This document shows positions 39,608 to 47,184 of a stretch of DNA of 64,000 nucleotides, in pieces. Below the pieces are notes generated by a model that worked only from the letters and a program-made list of their open reading frames with translations, made no database searches and was not told where the DNA came from. This stretch comes from Planctomycetota bacterium (GTDB lineage: Bacteria > Planctomycetota > Planctomycetia > Planctomycetales > Planctomycetaceae), in assembly GCA_018242525.1 (NCBI GenBank), contig JAFEBS010000056.1, forward strand, positions 3,202 to 67,201, written 5' to 3'. The position numbers were made by a program, and so were the translations under genes. The first letter of the stretch is position 1, and the number at the start of each line of letters is the position of its first letter.

Positions 39608-40166
39608 ACAGGTTCCCCCGGACTTTTTAGTACCTCGAAATGTTCGCCGATCCCGCCCATTCCCCCTCGAAATAGACGTTGGCGGACATTGCGGCCCTCA
39701 AGTCCCTGTGGCACGGTGCCGTCGGATGTTGACCAACGACAACTGCCGCGTTGTCAAAATTGAATATAGGCCGGGTTCCGGGAGTGGTCAAACTGCAACA
39801 TTTTTGAAGCTGCACATCCAACCGACTTAACTGGACAAGGTTCGCGCACCCGTTCGGATTACCCCGACTGCGAGGAGATTGAGGCCCGAATTCGGTGCCG
39901 GCGACGCTTGGCGTGCGACAGGCCCGAACTGGACAGTTGGTGTTGCGCCGCAAGTGGCTTACTGACAATACGTTGCGCCAACTTGTACATGAATGGGATT
40001 ATCTGGAACGGAAAATCGACTCGATCGTCGAGGGGAACTTCCCACTGGATCGGCTGATCCAGACCCTACATCCCCCCGGACCTGCCTGAAACCCCATCCC
40101 CGCAATGTTGTCGCCCACCGACAGCCGCGGTAATCCAGATCTCATCCTCGCTGATCTGTCACGGCT
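39608..40166. other. 559-base divergent spacer
   Basis: This spacer separates the S41 gene from the sigma-factor gene. It holds one 64-codon plus-strand frame (39895-40089) that I do not recognise and for which I see no good ribosome binding site. No clear repeat or riboswitch is visible. Promoters for both flanking operons must lie here. Confidence 0.4.
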
Positions 40167-40883
40167 ATGCGTATCTTCATGTGGAGGCCGAAAGTGTCCG
40201 AAGCGGATGTTCCTTCGATCAACGGAAGCGATATGACGCGCAGTGATTCTCCTCCCGACCTGGGGTACCAATTGCGGGCTGGAGACGAGGCGGTTCTGGA
40301 GGCGATTTTGCGCATTCACGGGCCGCCAATTCTGGCGCTCCTGAAGCAACGGTTTGTGGGACGCTTGACCGGGAATGACCTGGAAGATGTGCTGGCATCT
40401 GCGCTGTTTCGGGTCTGGCAGCATCGGAATCGGTTCGATCCGTCACTGGCATCGTTACGGGTGTGGTTCTTCCGAATTTCCGAGAACCTGGCGCGGGATG
40501 TCTTGAAGCATGGCTGGCACAAGGCGCGACAACTAGAGTCGAATCTGGAGCCGGCAGTCCTGGCCCTGCTGCTGGATCGAAGACCAGCGACGAACGACGT
40601 GGATTCCTCGCGAAATGGACACGCGGCACCCAAACTTCGAATACCAATCGAGCAACTGCGCGAGGTCCTTGCGCTGCTGCCAGACAATCAGCGACGCATC
40701 GTGCTGGCGGATGCCGACTCACCGGACGGGTTGGTGGCGAGTCAATTCCTGGCCAATGAACTGGGGATCACCCCGGCCACGGTCCGGGTCTATCGCCGAC
40801 GGGCACTGGAACGGCTGAAACGCGAGATTGAGCAACGCGAACTCGCCGGTCAAATGTCCCCGGCGGAAGCTTCGACATCCTGA
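40167..40883 (+). CDS. ECF-type RNA polymerase sigma factor
   Basis: This is a 238-residue sigma-70 family protein. Region 2 is DLEDVLASALFRVWQHRNRF with the downstream WFFRISENLARDVLK. Region 4 is LPDNQRRIVLA...ITPATVRVYRRRALERL. A poorly conserved linker separates them. It directs transcription of a specific set of genes. The next gene, 97 bases downstream, encodes a membrane FecR-type protein with an anti-sigma-like cytoplasmic head, so the two probably form a signalling pair. The exact start is uncertain; ATGs at 40167, 40182 and 40233 are in frame. Confidence 0.88.
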   Translation: MRIFMWRPKVSEADVPSINGSDMTRSDSPPDLGYQLRAGDEAVLEAILRIHGPPILALLKQRFVGRLTGNDLEDVLASALFRVWQHRNRFDPSLASLRVWFFRISENLARDVLKHGWHKARQLESNLEPAVLALLLDRRPATNDVDSSRNGHAAPKLRIPIEQLREVLALLPDNQRRIVLADADSPDGLVASQFLANELGITPATVRVYRRRALERLKREIEQRELAGQMSPAEASTS

Positions 40884-40980
40884 ATCGACCGCGCTGCAGC
40901 TGGCAGCCTTAAGACTTTGCCTGAAACTGAATTCTCTGCCAACGGTCGGTGTTGCCGGCCGAACTACGAAGGATCACGCG

Positions 40981-43900
40981 ATGAGCGATCCCATCAACTC
41001 TGCACCGCTGCCGGATGACGTCTTTCAGAATCGCATCGCTGCCGCGCTGCGTGAACTGGATCACACCGAAACCGACGCTGACCTTGCGGCAGTCCTCGAT
41101 GCGATCGATGCCGAACCGTTTCCAGACGCGACATTCCAGCGCATCCTGGGACAGGTTCGTTCTTCGATCCGCGCCAGCCGGACTGCCGTCAGCGTGCCTG
41201 GACGATCCAATGACCGGATGGTGGCGGGAGAACTCGGGATGACGGTCCGTTCAGCAATTCGACCGCACCGACCAGCCAGCCAGATCCCCATCGTGATTGC
41301 CTGCAGCGCGCTCGTGGCCGTGATGGCACTGCTGTTTCAACAATTTGGCGATGTCACTCGCGAACGTATCCCCCCCGAGGAGTACGCCGCCGATCCACCC
41401 GGACCGCGAGTCCTGTTGGCCGCCAGCGAGAAATCCAACACGGAAGTCGAAGCCCTGCTCGGCATCGCTCCAGCTCAACGCGTGGCCACTGGTGACACAA
41501 TCTCCACCGGTCCGCGGGAAAAGCGTCGGATCACGTTGCCAGACGGTTCCGTTCTGTCGATCAATGAATTGTCCCAAGTGACGATCGTCGGGCACCGACG
41601 CTTGAAACTTCTGGCGGGCGAAGTCTTCGTGGAAGTCGTACCGGCCAACTTTTCCCCCGCCGGTCAAGTCGACCGGTTCGTCGTCGAGACGCCGCAGCGT
41701 TCGGTCACGGCACTCGGAACAAAGTTCGTGGTCAAGGCGGACGGGAAGGCCACGAACGTCGTCGTCACGCAGGGGAAGGTCCAGGTCAGCGGTGTCGACC
41801 AGATCCTTCCCGCCGGGCAGGAATTGATTGCGGATCTCGATGATTCCCATTCCGCTCAAGTCATTCCCGCGAGACGGTCAGCCTTCGTGGTGGAGTGGAT
41901 CAAGGATTTGATGGCGGCAGCAGGCTCCGCCGTGGTGCCGTTCAGTGAGCATTCCGGCGGGTCGATGACCGTCGTTGATCCCCAGGGGCAGCCGATGAAA
42001 CTGTCGCTGCGGAAATTCCATGTCGATGTCCACATTGAAGACGGATTCGCCCGCACAACGATCGACCAGACCTACTTCAATCACACCTGGCAGCAGTTGG
42101 AAGGGACGTTCCGGTTCCCGCTGCCCGCCGATGCCTCGCTGTCACGACTGGCAATGTATGTGAATGGAACGCTGATGGAAGGGGGCATGGTGGAACGCGA
42201 CCATGGCCGCAACGTGTTTGAACAGATTCGGCACACCCGTCGCGATCCGGCCCTGCTGGAATGGGTCGATGGCAGCACGTTCCAGATGCGAGTCTTCCCG
42301 CTGGAACCACGACAGGAGAAGCGGATCCTGCTGAGTTATTCACAACGGCTGGCATCTGACTACGGAAAATCCATCTATCGCTTCCCGTCCGGCCACAACT
42401 TGGAAGGCGTGAAGGAATGGTCCACTCATGTTCGCGTGAAAGATGCGGCCGGTACAAAATGGTATTCGCCATCGCATCTGTTGACCGGCAGAGACGATCA
42501 GGGGGACTTGATCATTGATGGTCGCGATGAATATGCGATCCTCGATCGCGATCTGGTGCTCGAATTCGGCGAGACTGCTCCGGCGACTCAAGTCGCTGCC
42601 GGAGCCCGTTGGTCAGCCTATGAACAGGACGGATTTCAATACGTGATGCTGCGCCTGCGGCCGGTCCTGAAGACCACTGCCGTGCGAGCGCCGCGGCACT
42701 GGATCTTCCTGATCGAGAATTCGGCCGACCGCAACGAAGTTCTCGCCGAGACGCAGCGATTGATCGCCAGGACGCTGCTGGAAAATGTCGAACACAGCGA
42801 CACGTTCTCGGTGATTCGGGCAGGAACTCGACCTGATCTGTTCCGTCCGCGGCCTGTCGACTGTTCCCTGGACAACGTCGCTGAGGCACTGAGATTCCTG
42901 AACGAGATCGCACCGATTGGAGCACTGGACCTGCAACAGGGATTGCAGGCAGTTCAGCAACAGGTTCTGGAGCAACGCGAGAACTGGCTGGTTCACCTGG
43001 GCACCGGGATTCCGGTCCTGGGCGAACGTGACGACACAACACTGCGGCGGCTGTTGTCGGCGAAGACTCGCTACGTGGGCGTGGCCGTCGGCAAACGGTG
43101 GTCGAAGTCGTTCATGGAGGCCGCCGCCACTCAGACGGGCGGACATGTCACTCAGATCAATCCCGACGATGCGGTGGCCTGGCGCGCGTTCGATCTGCTG
43201 AGCACGTTGAATGCCCCGCGTCTGACAGAGATTTCGATCCAGGCCGTAACCGGTCCAGGCGTCGTCGGGGCTGCAGATCCCGGCCAATTCCTGCTGCTGA
43301 CAAACTCACTCGCGCATGGCCAGGAACTCGTGGCGGCTTCGCGATTTGCCACGGGCCGTCAACTTCCACAGGATGTGACGGTGACCGGAATGTTGGATGG
43401 TCAACCGTTTACGCAGACGATCGCTCTGCCCCGTTCGGTCGATGGCACAGCAGTCCTTGATTCGCATTCGGCTTCCTCAGTCGTGCCGGGAACTTCGCGC
43501 AGCGGGCATTTGCCGCGCACCTGGGCTCGCTGCGAGATCGATCGCCTGGTGGCATTGGGCTCCGTCGAACACAAGGCCCGGATCATCGAGTTGAGCAAGT
43601 CCATGTATGTCATGTCGCCGTTCACGTCGCTGCTCGTGCTGGAAACGGAAGCGATGTATGCCCAGTTTAACGTTGATCGAGGTCGCAAGGACCATTGGGC
43701 ACTGTATGCAACTCCTGACCGGATTCCGGTGATCAGCGACAACAGTCTGATCCAGGCCGCTCCGCTGGAAGCCGCACGGGAGCGTCTGAAGGCGGCTCAG
43801 GCGCGGGTGAAGGCAGCCCACTCCAATCTGGAACGCAGCGTGGCCGAGAAGCGCCCGATGGCGGATGTGCAGCGACTGGAACGGTTGCAGCGGGCGGAAC

Positions 43901-46900
43901 AGGCGGACTTGAAGTTGCTCGAGGTTGAATTGCGACGCCTTGAGCAGGCTCAGGCCGCGGCCGCCGATCCCGTTCGTAAGGCGTGGGACTCCGTAATCAC
44001 GCGCCGCTGCATGTACGATCCCCGGTATGTTCAGCTCACAAGAAGCGACTGGGGTTTGACAACTTTCGATGACTTCAATGGGAACGGGCTTGGCGCGGGA
44101 ACTGGGCTGGATGCGTCCCGCTTCTGGTACAAATCAACCCGCCTGAGTGAACTGGAAGGTTTGGAACTTCTGGGAGAGGCGGATCTCAATTTGAGTCTGC
44201 ATGGAAGCAACTCCCTGGATGGCCTGGTCCGGACGGCTCGCCCTGGCTCGGAACTGGATGTTCGCCAGAGACTGAGAGGGACGGACTTGAGAGCCATTGT
44301 GACACTGTCGGATGGCTCCGAGGAATCACCGTTTACGGCCAACGGTGCGTTTCTGTTCGGAAGCGTCCGGCAACAAGGCTTTGGCAGGAATGGTGCAAAC
44401 CTTGGTCAACTGTTCGAAATTCCTGTTCAGCTTCAGGTGTCCGACCTGGCGATGAACGGCATTGACTGGGAAGAGTATCACATTCCCCCCGCAGCCATGA
44501 TGGGGCGCCCCGGCCCGATGATCGATGGAACCGGCCCCGGAGTCCTGCCCATGTTGCTGACCCAAAGTGCGTCACAAGGGATGTGGGCGTATTACCCGAA
44601 TTCCGCCGTGACGAACTACCCACGGGACTACGTCGCCACAGGCGGGTTGGTGACGTTGGGAACGCAACTCGCTTTTACGACGTGGGGCGACGGCGAACTG
44701 ATGTACAGTCCACTGATTGTTGTTCGGGACCTTCCCAGCTACGCTCCCGGCTTACAGTCATGGACTGCAGACCGGTTGGCCGTGGCGGCCAAAGCCATGA
44801 CGACGAAACCCAAATCCGGTGACGTGGACATCGAGGCACGTCGGCTGATCGACAAAGCCCGCTCGTTGGGCTGGGAAACTGTCAAACTCAACGCAATCGA
44901 CCAGGCGCAAACGAGGCAGGCGGCGAAATCCCTGGTCGTGGATGGATCCGGTCGATTCGTCCTGCAGCGTGAAATCGGCGAAGGACTGCAGGAAACCGTC
45001 ATCAATGATGGTGCGGTGCTGTGGCACCTGTACCCGGAAATCGGCCTCGGTGCAAAACGGTCACTCAGTCGCTTTCACCAATCCACCATTCAGTCACTGA
45101 TCCCCTGGCATGTCCCTGCGGTGGATGACTTGTCGCTGGAGGCGGACATCAAACTGGTCGCGGAACGGACCATCCGGATCATTCCAATCACCGGGGATGC
45201 TGAGTCCCCGGCTGAAAGACCTCTGCATGCCGTCGAACTGGTGTTTGCGGAAACAGGTCGATTGAGCGAAGCACGCATGATTGACATCGCGACGAACAAG
45301 GTGCTGGCACGACAGGTGATGACTGCCGACGGCCTGGTTCAGCGTTTCGACGGAGCTGGCAAGCTTCTCGCAGAAGTGCAGTTTGAGCGTGCTGCGGCCC
45401 AGGCTCCCGGCCTTGTCCCTGAGACGTCGGAACTGGTCATTCTGCCGATGCCCTACCGATCCTCGGCCGGGCTGCCGATTTCGGTTCCTGCCGACCTGCA
45501 AACCAATGCCCCGGATTACACAAAGCTGTCCGATGACGACGCCCTGATGCTGGTGGGGACGTACTTCGCCGAGTCGCGACCCAACGAGTTGCTGTCGTTG
45601 ATTCAGTCGCGATACACCGGCCGCAGCGACCACCGACTGGGTTTTGCCGTCTTGATGACATCGATCCAGCCGCAGAATGTTCTGGTGACCCAGGCAACGA
45701 CTCAGCATCCGGATGCGGCACTGGCCAAATACCTGGAACAATTCGTCGCCATCGCGCTGGGGCATGACACTGCGTTCCACAGTCTCGGCGACAACGCCAG
45801 TCCGTTTCTGCGACGAATCAGCTCCGTCTACAATCAGTACCGCCAGTGGCTCGGCGACCCGCAAGTTCTCAAGGCAAAGTCTCCTGCCGAATTGGAACGA
45901 CAACTCGCGGGGACGCTGGCTGTCGCCCGCGAATGCAGAACGTCGCGTGTCGCCGACCGGCTGCTGACAACGGTATATTCGCAATTGAAGTCCGCCGAAC
46001 TCATGAATCCGGGCACCGCCCGCCAATTGAATGCCACAGCGACTGACATCGCGACCGCCCACAACCAGCCCGATTTCCTTCGTGCGAACCGGATTGAATG
46101 GTTGCTGCAGATGGGTGATGCGGCCGCAGTCACTCAGGCGAAAGAGCTGTTTCGATCGCAGCTTGCGGACGCCAACACCGTTCATCTCGCGCCTCATCTG
46201 AATGGCGGAACGCGAGCCGCCTTCGTGAAGCAGTTCCAGACTGCGGAAGGTCAGTCTTGTGGACCATGGGCCGATCTGGTTCGGGACGCCGCCCGTCAAC
46301 TGGCAGGGGACAATGTCCAATTGCGACGCGTTCAACTGGCCCGGCAGTGCCTCGATCTGAAAGAACCGGCCCTGGCCACCGAAATCATGCGACCCGTGCT
46401 CGATGATCACGGTTCGAAAACGGAAGCGGTTCTCAACCTGGCGATCCTGGAATACGCGAAAGCGGCCGGGAACTGGGAACTGGCGCAACGTTGCATTCAA
46501 CAGGTCCTGGCAAACGCCAAGCTGAATCCTGAACCAAAGTACTGGCGTGACGCCGCGAACATCGCCCACAACCTGCGGAAGTTTTCCGCCTGGATCGAAC
46601 ACCTTGAGCATGCATCCCAACTGGAATTCGCGGCACTTCCCAAGACTGTGAATCTCGATGAGTTCCGCAATTCGTACCGACTGCTGTTCGACCAGCTTTC
46701 ACAGCGGGCGGATCAACTGGTCGACGCGACACAGGAAGAACGATGGGTCTTCGCCCGGATGGTCCAGCGAGCGGCCGGGCGGTGGCGCGACATCGATGTC
46801 GACGATACGGACGTCTGCCATCGCACGGCGAAGATTCTGAACCGGTTGGGATTCGCAGACGCCGCCTGGAACTACTGGACCAGCCCGCTGGCGGAAGCCC

Positions 46901-47184
46901 CGGATCAGTCCACTGTCTGGACGACGTTTGCCACGGCAATGAATGATGAGCATCGCTTCCAGGTGGCGGATCGGGCCTGGTCAACTGCCTTTGAGTGCGA
47001 ATCCACCAATCCGGAACTGCTGCTGAAACATGCTCAATTCCTGCGAACAATCGGACAGCAGCATCGAGCCCACGAGATGTTGACTCGAATTACGACGAGC
47101 ACCTGGCAACCGCGATTTGAAAACATTAAAACCCAGGCGCAGGCAATGCTGACGGCCGGTCCTCTGCCACAATTGAAACCATGA
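40981..47184 (+). CDS. Giant FecR/VIT/vWA-like/TPR membrane protein
   Basis: This is a 2067-residue protein. A cytoplasmic head (1-100) that may bind the sigma factor is followed by one membrane helix (102-121) and a FecR domain (about 168-275). A VIT domain (about 338-470), a vWA-like domain (about 555-720, MIDAS DxSxS not intact: FLIENSAD) and a coiled coil (about 925-995) follow. A long beta-rich middle and helical, TPR-like C-terminal half (about 1600-2067) complete it. It would detect an extracytoplasmic or envelope condition and control the sigma factor. VIT plus vWA occurs in many bacterial surface proteins, but fused to FecR and TPR in one chain it is unusual. Start is ATG 40981; the upstream frame overlaps the sigma gene. 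Confidence 0.88.
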   Translation: MSDPINSAPLPDDVFQNRIAAALRELDHTETDADLAAVLDAIDAEPFPDATFQRILGQVRSSIRASRTAVSVPGRSNDRMVAGELGMTVRSAIRPHRPASQIPIVIACSALVAVMALLFQQFGDVTRERIPPEEYAADPPGPRVLLAASEKSNTEVEALLGIAPAQRVATGDTISTGPREKRRITLPDGSVLSINELSQVTIVGHRRLKLLAGEVFVEVVPANFSPAGQVDRFVVETPQRSVTALGTKFVVKADGKATNVVVTQGKVQVSGVDQILPAGQELIADLDDSHSAQVIPARRSAFVVEWIKDLMAAAGSAVVPFSEHSGGSMTVVDPQGQPMKLSLRKFHVDVHIEDGFARTTIDQTYFNHTWQQLEGTFRFPLPADASLSRLAMYVNGTLMEGGMVERDHGRNVFEQIRHTRRDPALLEWVDGSTFQMRVFPLEPRQEKRILLSYSQRLASDYGKSIYRFPSGHNLEGVKEWSTHVRVKDAAGTKWYSPSHLLTGRDDQGDLIIDGRDEYAILDRDLVLEFGETAPATQVAAGARWSAYEQDGFQYVMLRLRPVLKTTAVRAPRHWIFLIENSADRNEVLAETQRLIARTLLENVEHSDTFSVIRAGTRPDLFRPRPVDCSLDNVAEALRFLNEIAPIGALDLQQGLQAVQQQVLEQRENWLVHLGTGIPVLGERDDTTLRRLLSAKTRYVGVAVGKRWSKSFMEAAATQTGGHVTQINPDDAVAWRAFDLLSTLNAPRLTEISIQAVTGPGVVGAADPGQFLLLTNSLAHGQELVAASRFATGRQLPQDVTVTGMLDGQPFTQTIALPRSVDGTAVLDSHSASSVVPGTSRSGHLPRTWARCEIDRLVALGSVEHKARIIELSKSMYVMSPFTSLLVLETEAMYAQFNVDRGRKDHWALYATPDRIPVISDNSLIQAAPLEAARERLKAAQARVKAAHSNLERSVAEKRPMADVQRLERLQRAEQADLKLLEVELRRLEQAQAAAADPVRKAWDSVITRRCMYDPRYVQLTRSDWGLTTFDDFNGNGLGAGTGLDASRFWYKSTRLSELEGLELLGEADLNLSLHGSNSLDGLVRTARPGSELDVRQRLRGTDLRAIVTLSDGSEESPFTANGAFLFGSVRQQGFGRNGANLGQLFEIPVQLQVSDLAMNGIDWEEYHIPPAAMMGRPGPMIDGTGPGVLPMLLTQSASQGMWAYYPNSAVTNYPRDYVATGGLVTLGTQLAFTTWGDGELMYSPLIVVRDLPSYAPGLQSWTADRLAVAAKAMTTKPKSGDVDIEARRLIDKARSLGWETVKLNAIDQAQTRQAAKSLVVDGSGRFVLQREIGEGLQETVINDGAVLWHLYPEIGLGAKRSLSRFHQSTIQSLIPWHVPAVDDLSLEADIKLVAERTIRIIPITGDAESPAERPLHAVELVFAETGRLSEARMIDIATNKVLARQVMTADGLVQRFDGAGKLLAEVQFERAAAQAPGLVPETSELVILPMPYRSSAGLPISVPADLQTNAPDYTKLSDDDALMLVGTYFAESRPNELLSLIQSRYTGRSDHRLGFAVLMTSIQPQNVLVTQATTQHPDAALAKYLEQFVAIALGHDTAFHSLGDNASPFLRRISSVYNQYRQWLGDPQVLKAKSPAELERQLAGTLAVARECRTSRVADRLLTTVYSQLKSAELMNPGTARQLNATATDIATAHNQPDFLRANRIEWLLQMGDAAAVTQAKELFRSQLADANTVHLAPHLNGGTRAAFVKQFQTAEGQSCGPWADLVRDAARQLAGDNVQLRRVQLARQCLDLKEPALATEIMRPVLDDHGSKTEAVLNLAILEYAKAAGNWELAQRCIQQVLANAKLNPEPKYWRDAANIAHNLRKFSAWIEHLEHASQLEFAALPKTVNLDEFRNSYRLLFDQLSQRADQLVDATQEERWVFARMVQRAAGRWRDIDVDDTDVCHRTAKILNRLGFADAAWNYWTSPLAEAPDQSTVWTTFATAMNDEHRFQVADRAWSTAFECESTNPELLLKHAQFLRTIGQQHRAHEMLTRITTSTWQPRFENIKTQAQAMLTAGPLPQLKP

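Follow-up and report, generated by a model that had tools for sequence, protein, structure and literature searches.

A giant FecR-VIT-vWA-TPR membrane protein of planctomycetes is a putative anti-sigma factor with an apparently exchangeable sigma cassette

Introduction

What governs an extracytoplasmic function (ECF) sigma factor whose gene is followed directly by one for a 2,067-residue membrane protein, and what might so large a protein respond to? The two genes lie in a 64,000-nucleotide stretch of planctomycete DNA (hereafter the window), which occupies C51:3202-67201 of an 8.45-Mb genome, G000. We know of no signal for most planctomycete ECF factors. A preliminary description of the locus, made from the sequence, proposed that the giant protein is an anti-sigma sensor that may respond to surface contact or protein assemblies. 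A literature search returned no paper joining the VIT domain or inter-alpha-trypsin with an anti-sigma factor, or VIT with planctomycetes; the planctomycete ECF surveys (Jogler 2012, Wiegand 2020, Casas-Pastor 2021) lay outside that search, and sigma groups of the window's type may already be numbered in them.

The comparisons reported here make it probable, in our judgement, that the pair constitutes a self-contained ECF sigma/anti-sigma loop of two genes, probably autoregulated and with an exchangeable inner cassette. The family would then represent a natural domain-swap series in which the same sensor is found with different sigma factors, heads, and upstream sites, so that sigma/anti-sigma pairing rules and promoter choice become testable from sequence. 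It also includes, within a putative signalling protein, a bacterial region related to the human inter-alpha-inhibitor heavy chain.

The sigma gene and the giant gene form a conserved pair

In the window, an ECF sigma open reading frame (ORF) at 40167-40883 is followed, after a gap of 97 bp from its stop codon, by a 2,067-codon frame at 40981-47184; both are on the forward strand, as are the parts of this pair described below. The sigma protein matched Sigma70_r2 in Pfam (33.7 bits, above the cut-off of 24) and sigma70-ECF in NCBIfam (47.8 bits versus a cut-off of 42.9), while its region 4_2 match fell under the cut-off (23.0 versus 25.7 bits). The ORF and its ECF identity are as first described; the start at 40167 is probably not. 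Translation more likely begins at ATG 40233, giving a gene of 40233-40883, because the sigma relatives begin there with MTRSxS and because ATG 40167 falls within a conserved upstream motif (40157-40176). The giant protein is predicted to consist of a cytoplasmic head (residues 1-101; 40981-41283), a single transmembrane helix at approximately residues 104-120 (41290-41340), called from hydrophobicity and an AlphaFold2 helix at 104-120, and an outer part of about 1,900 residues.

Two peptide patterns, scanned against 84,980 species genomes, yielded 54 giant-protein loci, nearly all titled planctomycetes (one is Acidobacteria and one Nealsonbacteria by title, with binning taken as given). The closest named relatives, at 59-67% identity, are titled Schlesneria, Planctomyces or Planctomycetaceae, with one Kuenenia. 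A same-strand sigma ORF precedes the giant gene in 44 of the 54 loci, and in 40 of these 44 the distance between the two is -128 to 194 bp. The other four, in which the gap is 476-807 bp (L088, L091, L104) or the frames overlap by 335 bp (L100), probably reflect frame or start errors. With 57 Sigma70_r2 matches in G000, 55 of them above the cut-off, and an estimated several thousand genes, chance adjacency would be approximately 1%. Five relative pairs collected earlier add no further evidence, because several are the same records (for example, L052 is G009:C225).

Six of the ten unpaired loci are truncated, either because the contig starts inside the gene (L060, L066, L075, L093, L094) or with 87 bp of upstream sequence (L098). 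L074 and L102 lack both a sigma gene and any recognisable head; in L074, 52 residues precede the helix in the called frame and are unlike any other head. L102 (8839-14750) consists of two overlapping ORFs of 440 and 1530 residues, as if frameshifted. In L096 (8284-10239), sigma region 2 (28.8 bits, cut-off 24) is in frame with the helix, FecR, and VIT in a single ORF, which represents either a membrane-tethered sigma factor or a decayed locus. Region 4 was matched only in part in L096. The tenth locus, L051, has a head and is a true exception.

When the heads of 44 orthologs were scanned at E<=1, three matched zf-HC2 (best 1.4e-11), a common zinc anti-sigma fold, and two matched DUF4880 (best 3.4e-6). 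The zf-HC2 match of the L071 head, which belongs to sigma type C (below), reached 39.9 bits, above the cut-off of 22.2; the DUF4880 match of the head of L069, likewise type C and from Zavarzinella formosa DSM 19928, was below the cut-off when the whole protein was scanned. The pairing, whose absence across genomes would have spoken against the preliminary description, is conserved, with L051 as the exception. An anti-sigma role of the giant protein is well supported by this adjacency, the zf-HC2 and DUF4880 heads, heads that change with sigma type (below), the joint absence of head and sigma factor in L074 and L102, and the L096 fusion, all of it evidence at the level of sequence.

The distribution of this system in the phylum is scattered rather than universal. 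Proteins of the FecR-VIT-vWA type scored >900 bits in 8 of 294 phylum genomes, window included, which is a lower bound because three candidates per genome were scored. Matches at E 1e-60 or better occurred in 53 of the 294, and most of them start past FecR and look like other VIT-vWA families.

Sigma factor and head differ jointly under a conserved outer part

For a mirror analysis, we kept 40 of 45 pairs, dropping L088, L091, L100, L101, and L104, whose N-terminal region is broken or short. Average-linkage clustering with a cut at 0.72, a value that we chose, divided the sigma factors into four types: type A with 19 members including the window, type B with 17, type C, which rests on 3 loci (Gemmataceae, Zavarzinella), and type D, which rests on 1 (L090). 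Members of the same type (A, B, or C) shared 54-58% sigma identity and members of different types 17-25%, while identity from FecR to vWA was 54-61% within types and still 50-53% between them. Head type tracks sigma type by inspection, using a label pattern written post hoc with the heads already in view, under which one type-B head (L078) was labelled 'other'. Sigma and head distances correlated with r 0.85, a value inflated by saturation because heads of different types align poorly; the partial correlation given the ectodomain was 0.72 (reached by 0 of 1000 permutations), and the partial correlation of sigma factor with ectodomain given the head was 0.08.

Searching outward from the type-B sigma factor, we found relatives at 47-62% identity in 5 of 149 phylum genomes, each adjoining a giant gene by coordinates; at least one of these five close pairs had already been counted (L194 begins like L073), and they overlap with the 44 of 54 above. 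Six further relatives were at 35-38% identity. The neighbours of five of these (L188 was left out) are all membrane proteins with other outer parts, such as a carboxypeptidase-regulatory-like part in L190 and FecR plus LamG in L189, and carry short heads that are similar to type B clearly in L185, L187, and L190 and weakly in L186 and L189. This distribution suggests that an inner cassette of sigma factor, head, and, in types A and B, upstream site is exchangeable under one conserved ectodomain.

Upstream motifs are specific to sigma types A and B

Upstream of the type-A sigma genes, a TGT[AC]AC[AG] element was present in 18 of the 18 loci looked at, including the window, where the conserved two-block form TGT(A/C)AC-N7/8-CGTAT at 40157-40176 is a putative autoregulated promoter element. 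With patterns written after the sequences were in view, two-block forms were found in 16/18 type-A loci (0.04 expected from shuffles), 17/21 type-B loci, and 14/14 loci of a second giant family described below, and none was found across types. The unbiased count is an exhaustive count of exact two-block words compared to six mononucleotide shuffles. For type A, 14 of 16 upstream regions had GTAAC-CGTA, versus no more than 4 in any shuffle; for type B, AAGGA-N15/16-ACAT was present in 12 of 18 (shuffles again no more than 4); and for the second family, 7 of 11 contained GACAC-AATT (no more than 3). Common ancestry of the flanking DNA could add to this conservation within types.

The type-B arrangement, GCGAAGGA-N16-ACAT, is spaced like an ordinary ECF promoter, and several second-family loci have GGAATT approximately 16 bp before CGTC. 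Only 7-8 bp separate the type-A blocks; such spacing is not that of a normal -35/-10 pair, and yet the blocks are strongly conserved. In L057 and L092 the type-A element falls inside the called ORF, and the called starts of these two are probably too early. A GAAC-N-GTC sequence upstream of the sigma gene was seen in 2 of 9 loci and was set aside as chance.

We also scanned genomes for further copies of these motifs. In G000, when up to one mismatch was allowed, the strict type-A pattern gave 3 sites and 1 control hit, the only exact site being that of the pair's own operon. TGTAACN{7,8}CGTAT, which does not match the own operon (TGTCAC), gave 2 sites versus 3 control hits, and the type-A blocks at the usual ECF spacing, N{15,17}, gave 2 versus 6. 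A looser type-A form in nine relatives gave 13 sites versus 21 control hits; three of the 13 belong to own operons (G009, G004, G013), four lie in repeat copies in G020 away from the pair, and a second G009 site overlaps other reading frames. Across seven genomes, the type-B motif gave 5 sites versus 1 control hit, one in each of five genomes: where the own sigma gene begins in G094, G205, and G232, and elsewhere in G101 and G109; G084 and G133 had none. A motif-defined, genome-wide regulon was therefore not visible in the scanned genomes, where exact sites were few and looser forms were at background, while a degenerate regulon is possible.

The repeat copies in G020 (L169-L172) are four similar sequences, three of which have TGACCCCAGGCT and then TGTAACGCC..GGCGTAT, a type-A-like arrangement.

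Since the clearest target is the operon itself, the purpose of the loop may be to control how much giant protein is made. This bears on the possibility, in our view less likely than not, that the giant protein acts mainly as a structural or adhesive component of the envelope and that the sigma loop sets its amount and nothing else. That possibility fits an own operon that holds the sole exact strict type-A site of G000 and, in G094, G205, and G232, the sole type-B site, and it fits relatives with neither head nor sigma factor (L074, L102, L044, L045), while a degenerate regulon would speak against it; it overlaps in part with the sigma/anti-sigma loop that we favour.

Several observations weigh against such a loop with an exchangeable cassette, beginning with the saturation already mentioned. 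Among type-A pairs, sigma divergence tracks the head and the ectodomain to the same degree (0.91 for both; partial 0.54), and among type-B pairs the partial correlation of sigma factor with head is 0.26. L051 has a head with no sigma gene in its 519 bp of upstream sequence, and the 54 loci stem from two peptide patterns and overlap with the other relative genomes analysed. The window head gave no match to a Pfam anti-sigma family and folds with low confidence, with helices at residues 12-25, 32-41, and 49-68 in the AlphaFold2 model. None of the three motifs appears in the four type-C and type-D upstream regions, the strict type-B motif misses the own operon in 4 of 7 type-B genomes, and a promoter function of the type-A element can be put forward only conditionally, because 7-8 bp is short for a -35/-10 pair. 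The equal tracking within type A and the L051 locus would also fit a sigma factor and a giant protein that are merely co-transcribed without interacting. We consider this highly improbable, given that sigma factor and head differ jointly across four types, that the L071 head is a zf-HC2 domain, and that head and sigma factor are absent together in two loci and fused in L096.

The outer part combines FecR, VIT and vWA domains with a TPR solenoid

The FecR-VIT-vWA-TPR membrane protein of 2,067 residues that the preliminary description had proposed was recovered by the reading frame, Pfam, AlphaFold2 models, and structural matches. In a model built with 37 aligned sequences (mean predicted local distance difference test [pLDDT] 78.7), FecR, VIT, and vWA were all modelled at good confidence. 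The FecR domain (residues 172-268; 41494-41784) matched Pfam with E 9.8e-17 and 61.6 bits (cut-off 24), and residues 171-310 matched 4m0n, a putative anti-sigma factor of Parabacteroides (Z 19.0, root-mean-square deviation [rmsd] 2.0, 131 aligned residues, 28% identity). By its position past the single helix, this domain would lie outside the membrane.

The VIT domain (residues 343-453; 42007-42339; Pfam E 3.3e-24) is the most conserved part of the protein by its conservation profile. The vWA domain (residues 576-721; 42706-43143) matched VWA_3 weakly (E 0.0031, 18 bits, cut-off 27), and its fold is supported by structural comparison beyond that score. In the canonical metal ion-dependent adhesion site (MIDAS) motif, DxSxS, residue 579 would be the first Asp; it is Glu in 37 of the 37 aligned sequences, window included, which makes the missing metal site, already suspected from the window, a trait of the family. 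Residues 674-676 are mostly G-S/T-G in the aligned relatives. Together with the part that follows, VIT and vWA form a heavy-chain-like core (residues 338-898; 41992-43674), whose best structural match as one unit was human inter-alpha-inhibitor heavy chain 1 (6fpy_A; Z 23.0, rmsd 5.6, 523 aligned residues). The giant protein differs from heavy chain 1 in the Glu at the first MIDAS position, a bacterial membrane anchor, and the added FecR and TPR parts. The VIT-vWA region also resembles TIGR03788, the marine sortase target family, at 125.2 bits, far under the NCBIfam cut-off of 551.65.

The coiled coil of the preliminary description is less certain: the stretch at residues 927-996 (43759-43968) has a modest heptad count of 11/18, judged by eye, and its columns are occupied in part of the relatives only. 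Toward the C-terminus, residues 1262-2060 were modelled as an alpha/beta domain followed by a helical solenoid (mean pLDDT 91). The solenoid (approximately residues 1561-2060; 45661-47160) matched TPR structures; the Pfam TPR match of the window protein was weak and below the cut-off, and 28 of 36 members had a TPR model at E<=1.

A probable LolA-like domain offers a candidate signal

Between the coiled-coil-like stretch and the TPR solenoid, residues 1262-1500 (44764-45480) are probably LolA-like, most strongly at approximately 1320-1440. Because E. coli LolA alone gave a probability of 8 in hhalign, we compared a 38-sequence profile of the alpha/beta part with a 31-sequence LolA profile. The match had a probability of 75% (75.3%) and a score of 42.3 over 115 columns, at approximately residues 1320-1440, with default settings, and 54.8% over 205 columns with -glob 0. 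Controls scored 11.6 and 11.3 (reversed), <=18.2 (20 column-shuffled profiles), and <=19.0 (four other regions of the giant protein). Pfam LolA was found at E<=1 in the C-terminal regions of 2 of 36 members, the window not among them (best 4.4e-4). A profile search of the PDB with this region gave ten matches to unrelated proteins, none convincing (best E 0.28), and the structural search of the C-terminal model, whose list was filled by TPR folds, is silent on the LolA-like part.

Lipoproteins or lipids are a candidate signal on account of the LolA-like part, and protein binding is another on account of the VIT-vWA unit. The anti-sigma half of the preliminary description thus agrees with the conserved pairing and the head types; sensing of surface contact or protein assemblies drew no specific support, the LolA-like domain fitting lipoproteins or lipids at least equally well.

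RseB has a LolA-like fold, and the giant protein would resemble the RseA-RseB/sigma-E system in joining a putative membrane anti-sigma protein with a probable LolA-like module; it differs in having everything in one chain, and its LolA-like match is only moderate. It could accordingly be an envelope-stress sensor that unites the roles of RseA and RseB, its LolA-like domain binding mislocalised lipoproteins or lipids and its sigma factor running an envelope regulon (on the role of RseB, see PMC8103513). The profile match above its controls, the Pfam LolA matches in two members, and a LolA-like match in four members of the second family favour such a sensor. We regard it as rather unlikely, in view of the unconvincing PDB search and the absence of a motif-defined regulon from the scanned genomes. 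We lean a little more toward a constant, heavy-chain-like, LolA-bearing outer module placed on four distant sigma/head cassettes, from which the sigma factor would meter an envelope scaffold by its state or its lipoprotein ligand, with no stress regulon, and we hold this tentatively. In types A and B, such a cassette would come with an upstream control site of its own, the clearest copy of which lies at the own operon.

For the loop that we favour, the following mechanism can be proposed. The cytoplasmic head would hold the sigma factor at the membrane, and the single helix and FecR domain would relay a signal from the outer part, with its heavy-chain-like VIT-vWA unit lacking the canonical metal site, its probable LolA-like domain, and its TPR solenoid. 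Once a ligand binds to or leaves the outer part, the head would free the sigma factor, perhaps through intramembrane proteolysis. Such proteolysis is reported for E. coli FecR (PMC8144685). The freed sigma factor would transcribe its own operon, and the main output may be more giant protein.

The pair lacks a conserved third gene

Among the closest known arrangements is FecI-FecR, which likewise joins an adjacent ECF sigma factor to a single-helix protein with a cytoplasmic head and an outer FecR domain. Unlike FecR, the giant protein has a much bigger ectodomain that includes VIT-vWA, a TPR solenoid, and a probable LolA-like domain, the window head is not recognised as DUF4880, and across 49 loci the pair has no conserved third gene such as one for a TonB-dependent receptor. 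Signalling of the FecIRA type, in which an outer-membrane TonB-dependent receptor would act through the FecR domain, fits the presence of that domain by Pfam and structure. It is an improbable reading here: no gene beyond the pair recurs in more than 6 of the 49 loci with flanking ORFs, and the eight neighbours in the window gave no match to a TonB receptor model, in a search that covered those neighbours and not the rest of the genome.

The eight neighbours encode TPR, HDOD, beta-propeller, S41 protease, DUF1552, and DUF1592-type proteins and two proteins with no Pfam match. None had a relative in the 54 giant-protein loci at E 1e-8, and with no recurrent third gene they were rejected as partners.

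Other VIT-vWA families and a shared peptide

In a second family of giant VIT-vWA proteins, of about 3,150-3,470 residues, all 14 scored loci have a sigma gene upstream (L040-L043, L047, L157-L165; sigma factors of L040, L041, L043, and L047 checked with Pfam), which also favours the sigma/anti-sigma loop. L046 and L048, whose N-terminus is not intact, were left unscored, and L166-L168 belong to a different type, of short VIT proteins, for which the script recognised neither a VIT frame nor a sigma gene. Two members, L040 and L041, lie in the window's own genome (G000:C49 and C78). L040 and L042, the two that were read, have an intact MIDAS-type motif, DTSAS. Four members share an N-terminal outer domain that matched LolA in hhalign (probability 50, score 34.3); L042 and L164 seem to lack it. 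In a third kind, L044 and L045, VIT-vWA proteins of about 2,000 residues have a signal-peptide-like start and no head; no relative of the window sigma factor was found at either locus, and FecR was below the cut-off in L044 and not found in L045.

One short segment of the window's giant protein has a counterpart elsewhere in the genome. A 31-residue peptide encoded at 44470-44562 resembles the N-terminal part of a conserved lipoprotein-like protein: 28 residues are 86% identical (E 2.4e-11) to a stretch of L050 (G000:C8:178455-178538), and the DNA is 79% identical over 84 bp. As a feature of the family, the peptide at residues 1161-1194 was rejected, its pattern matching 0 of the 54 giant-protein relatives; the peptide may be a ligand mimic or a recent insertion. 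The match in L050 sits shortly past a lipobox-like Cys of a 417-residue protein, relatives of which, found by peptide, are present in approximately 30 of 59 genomes.

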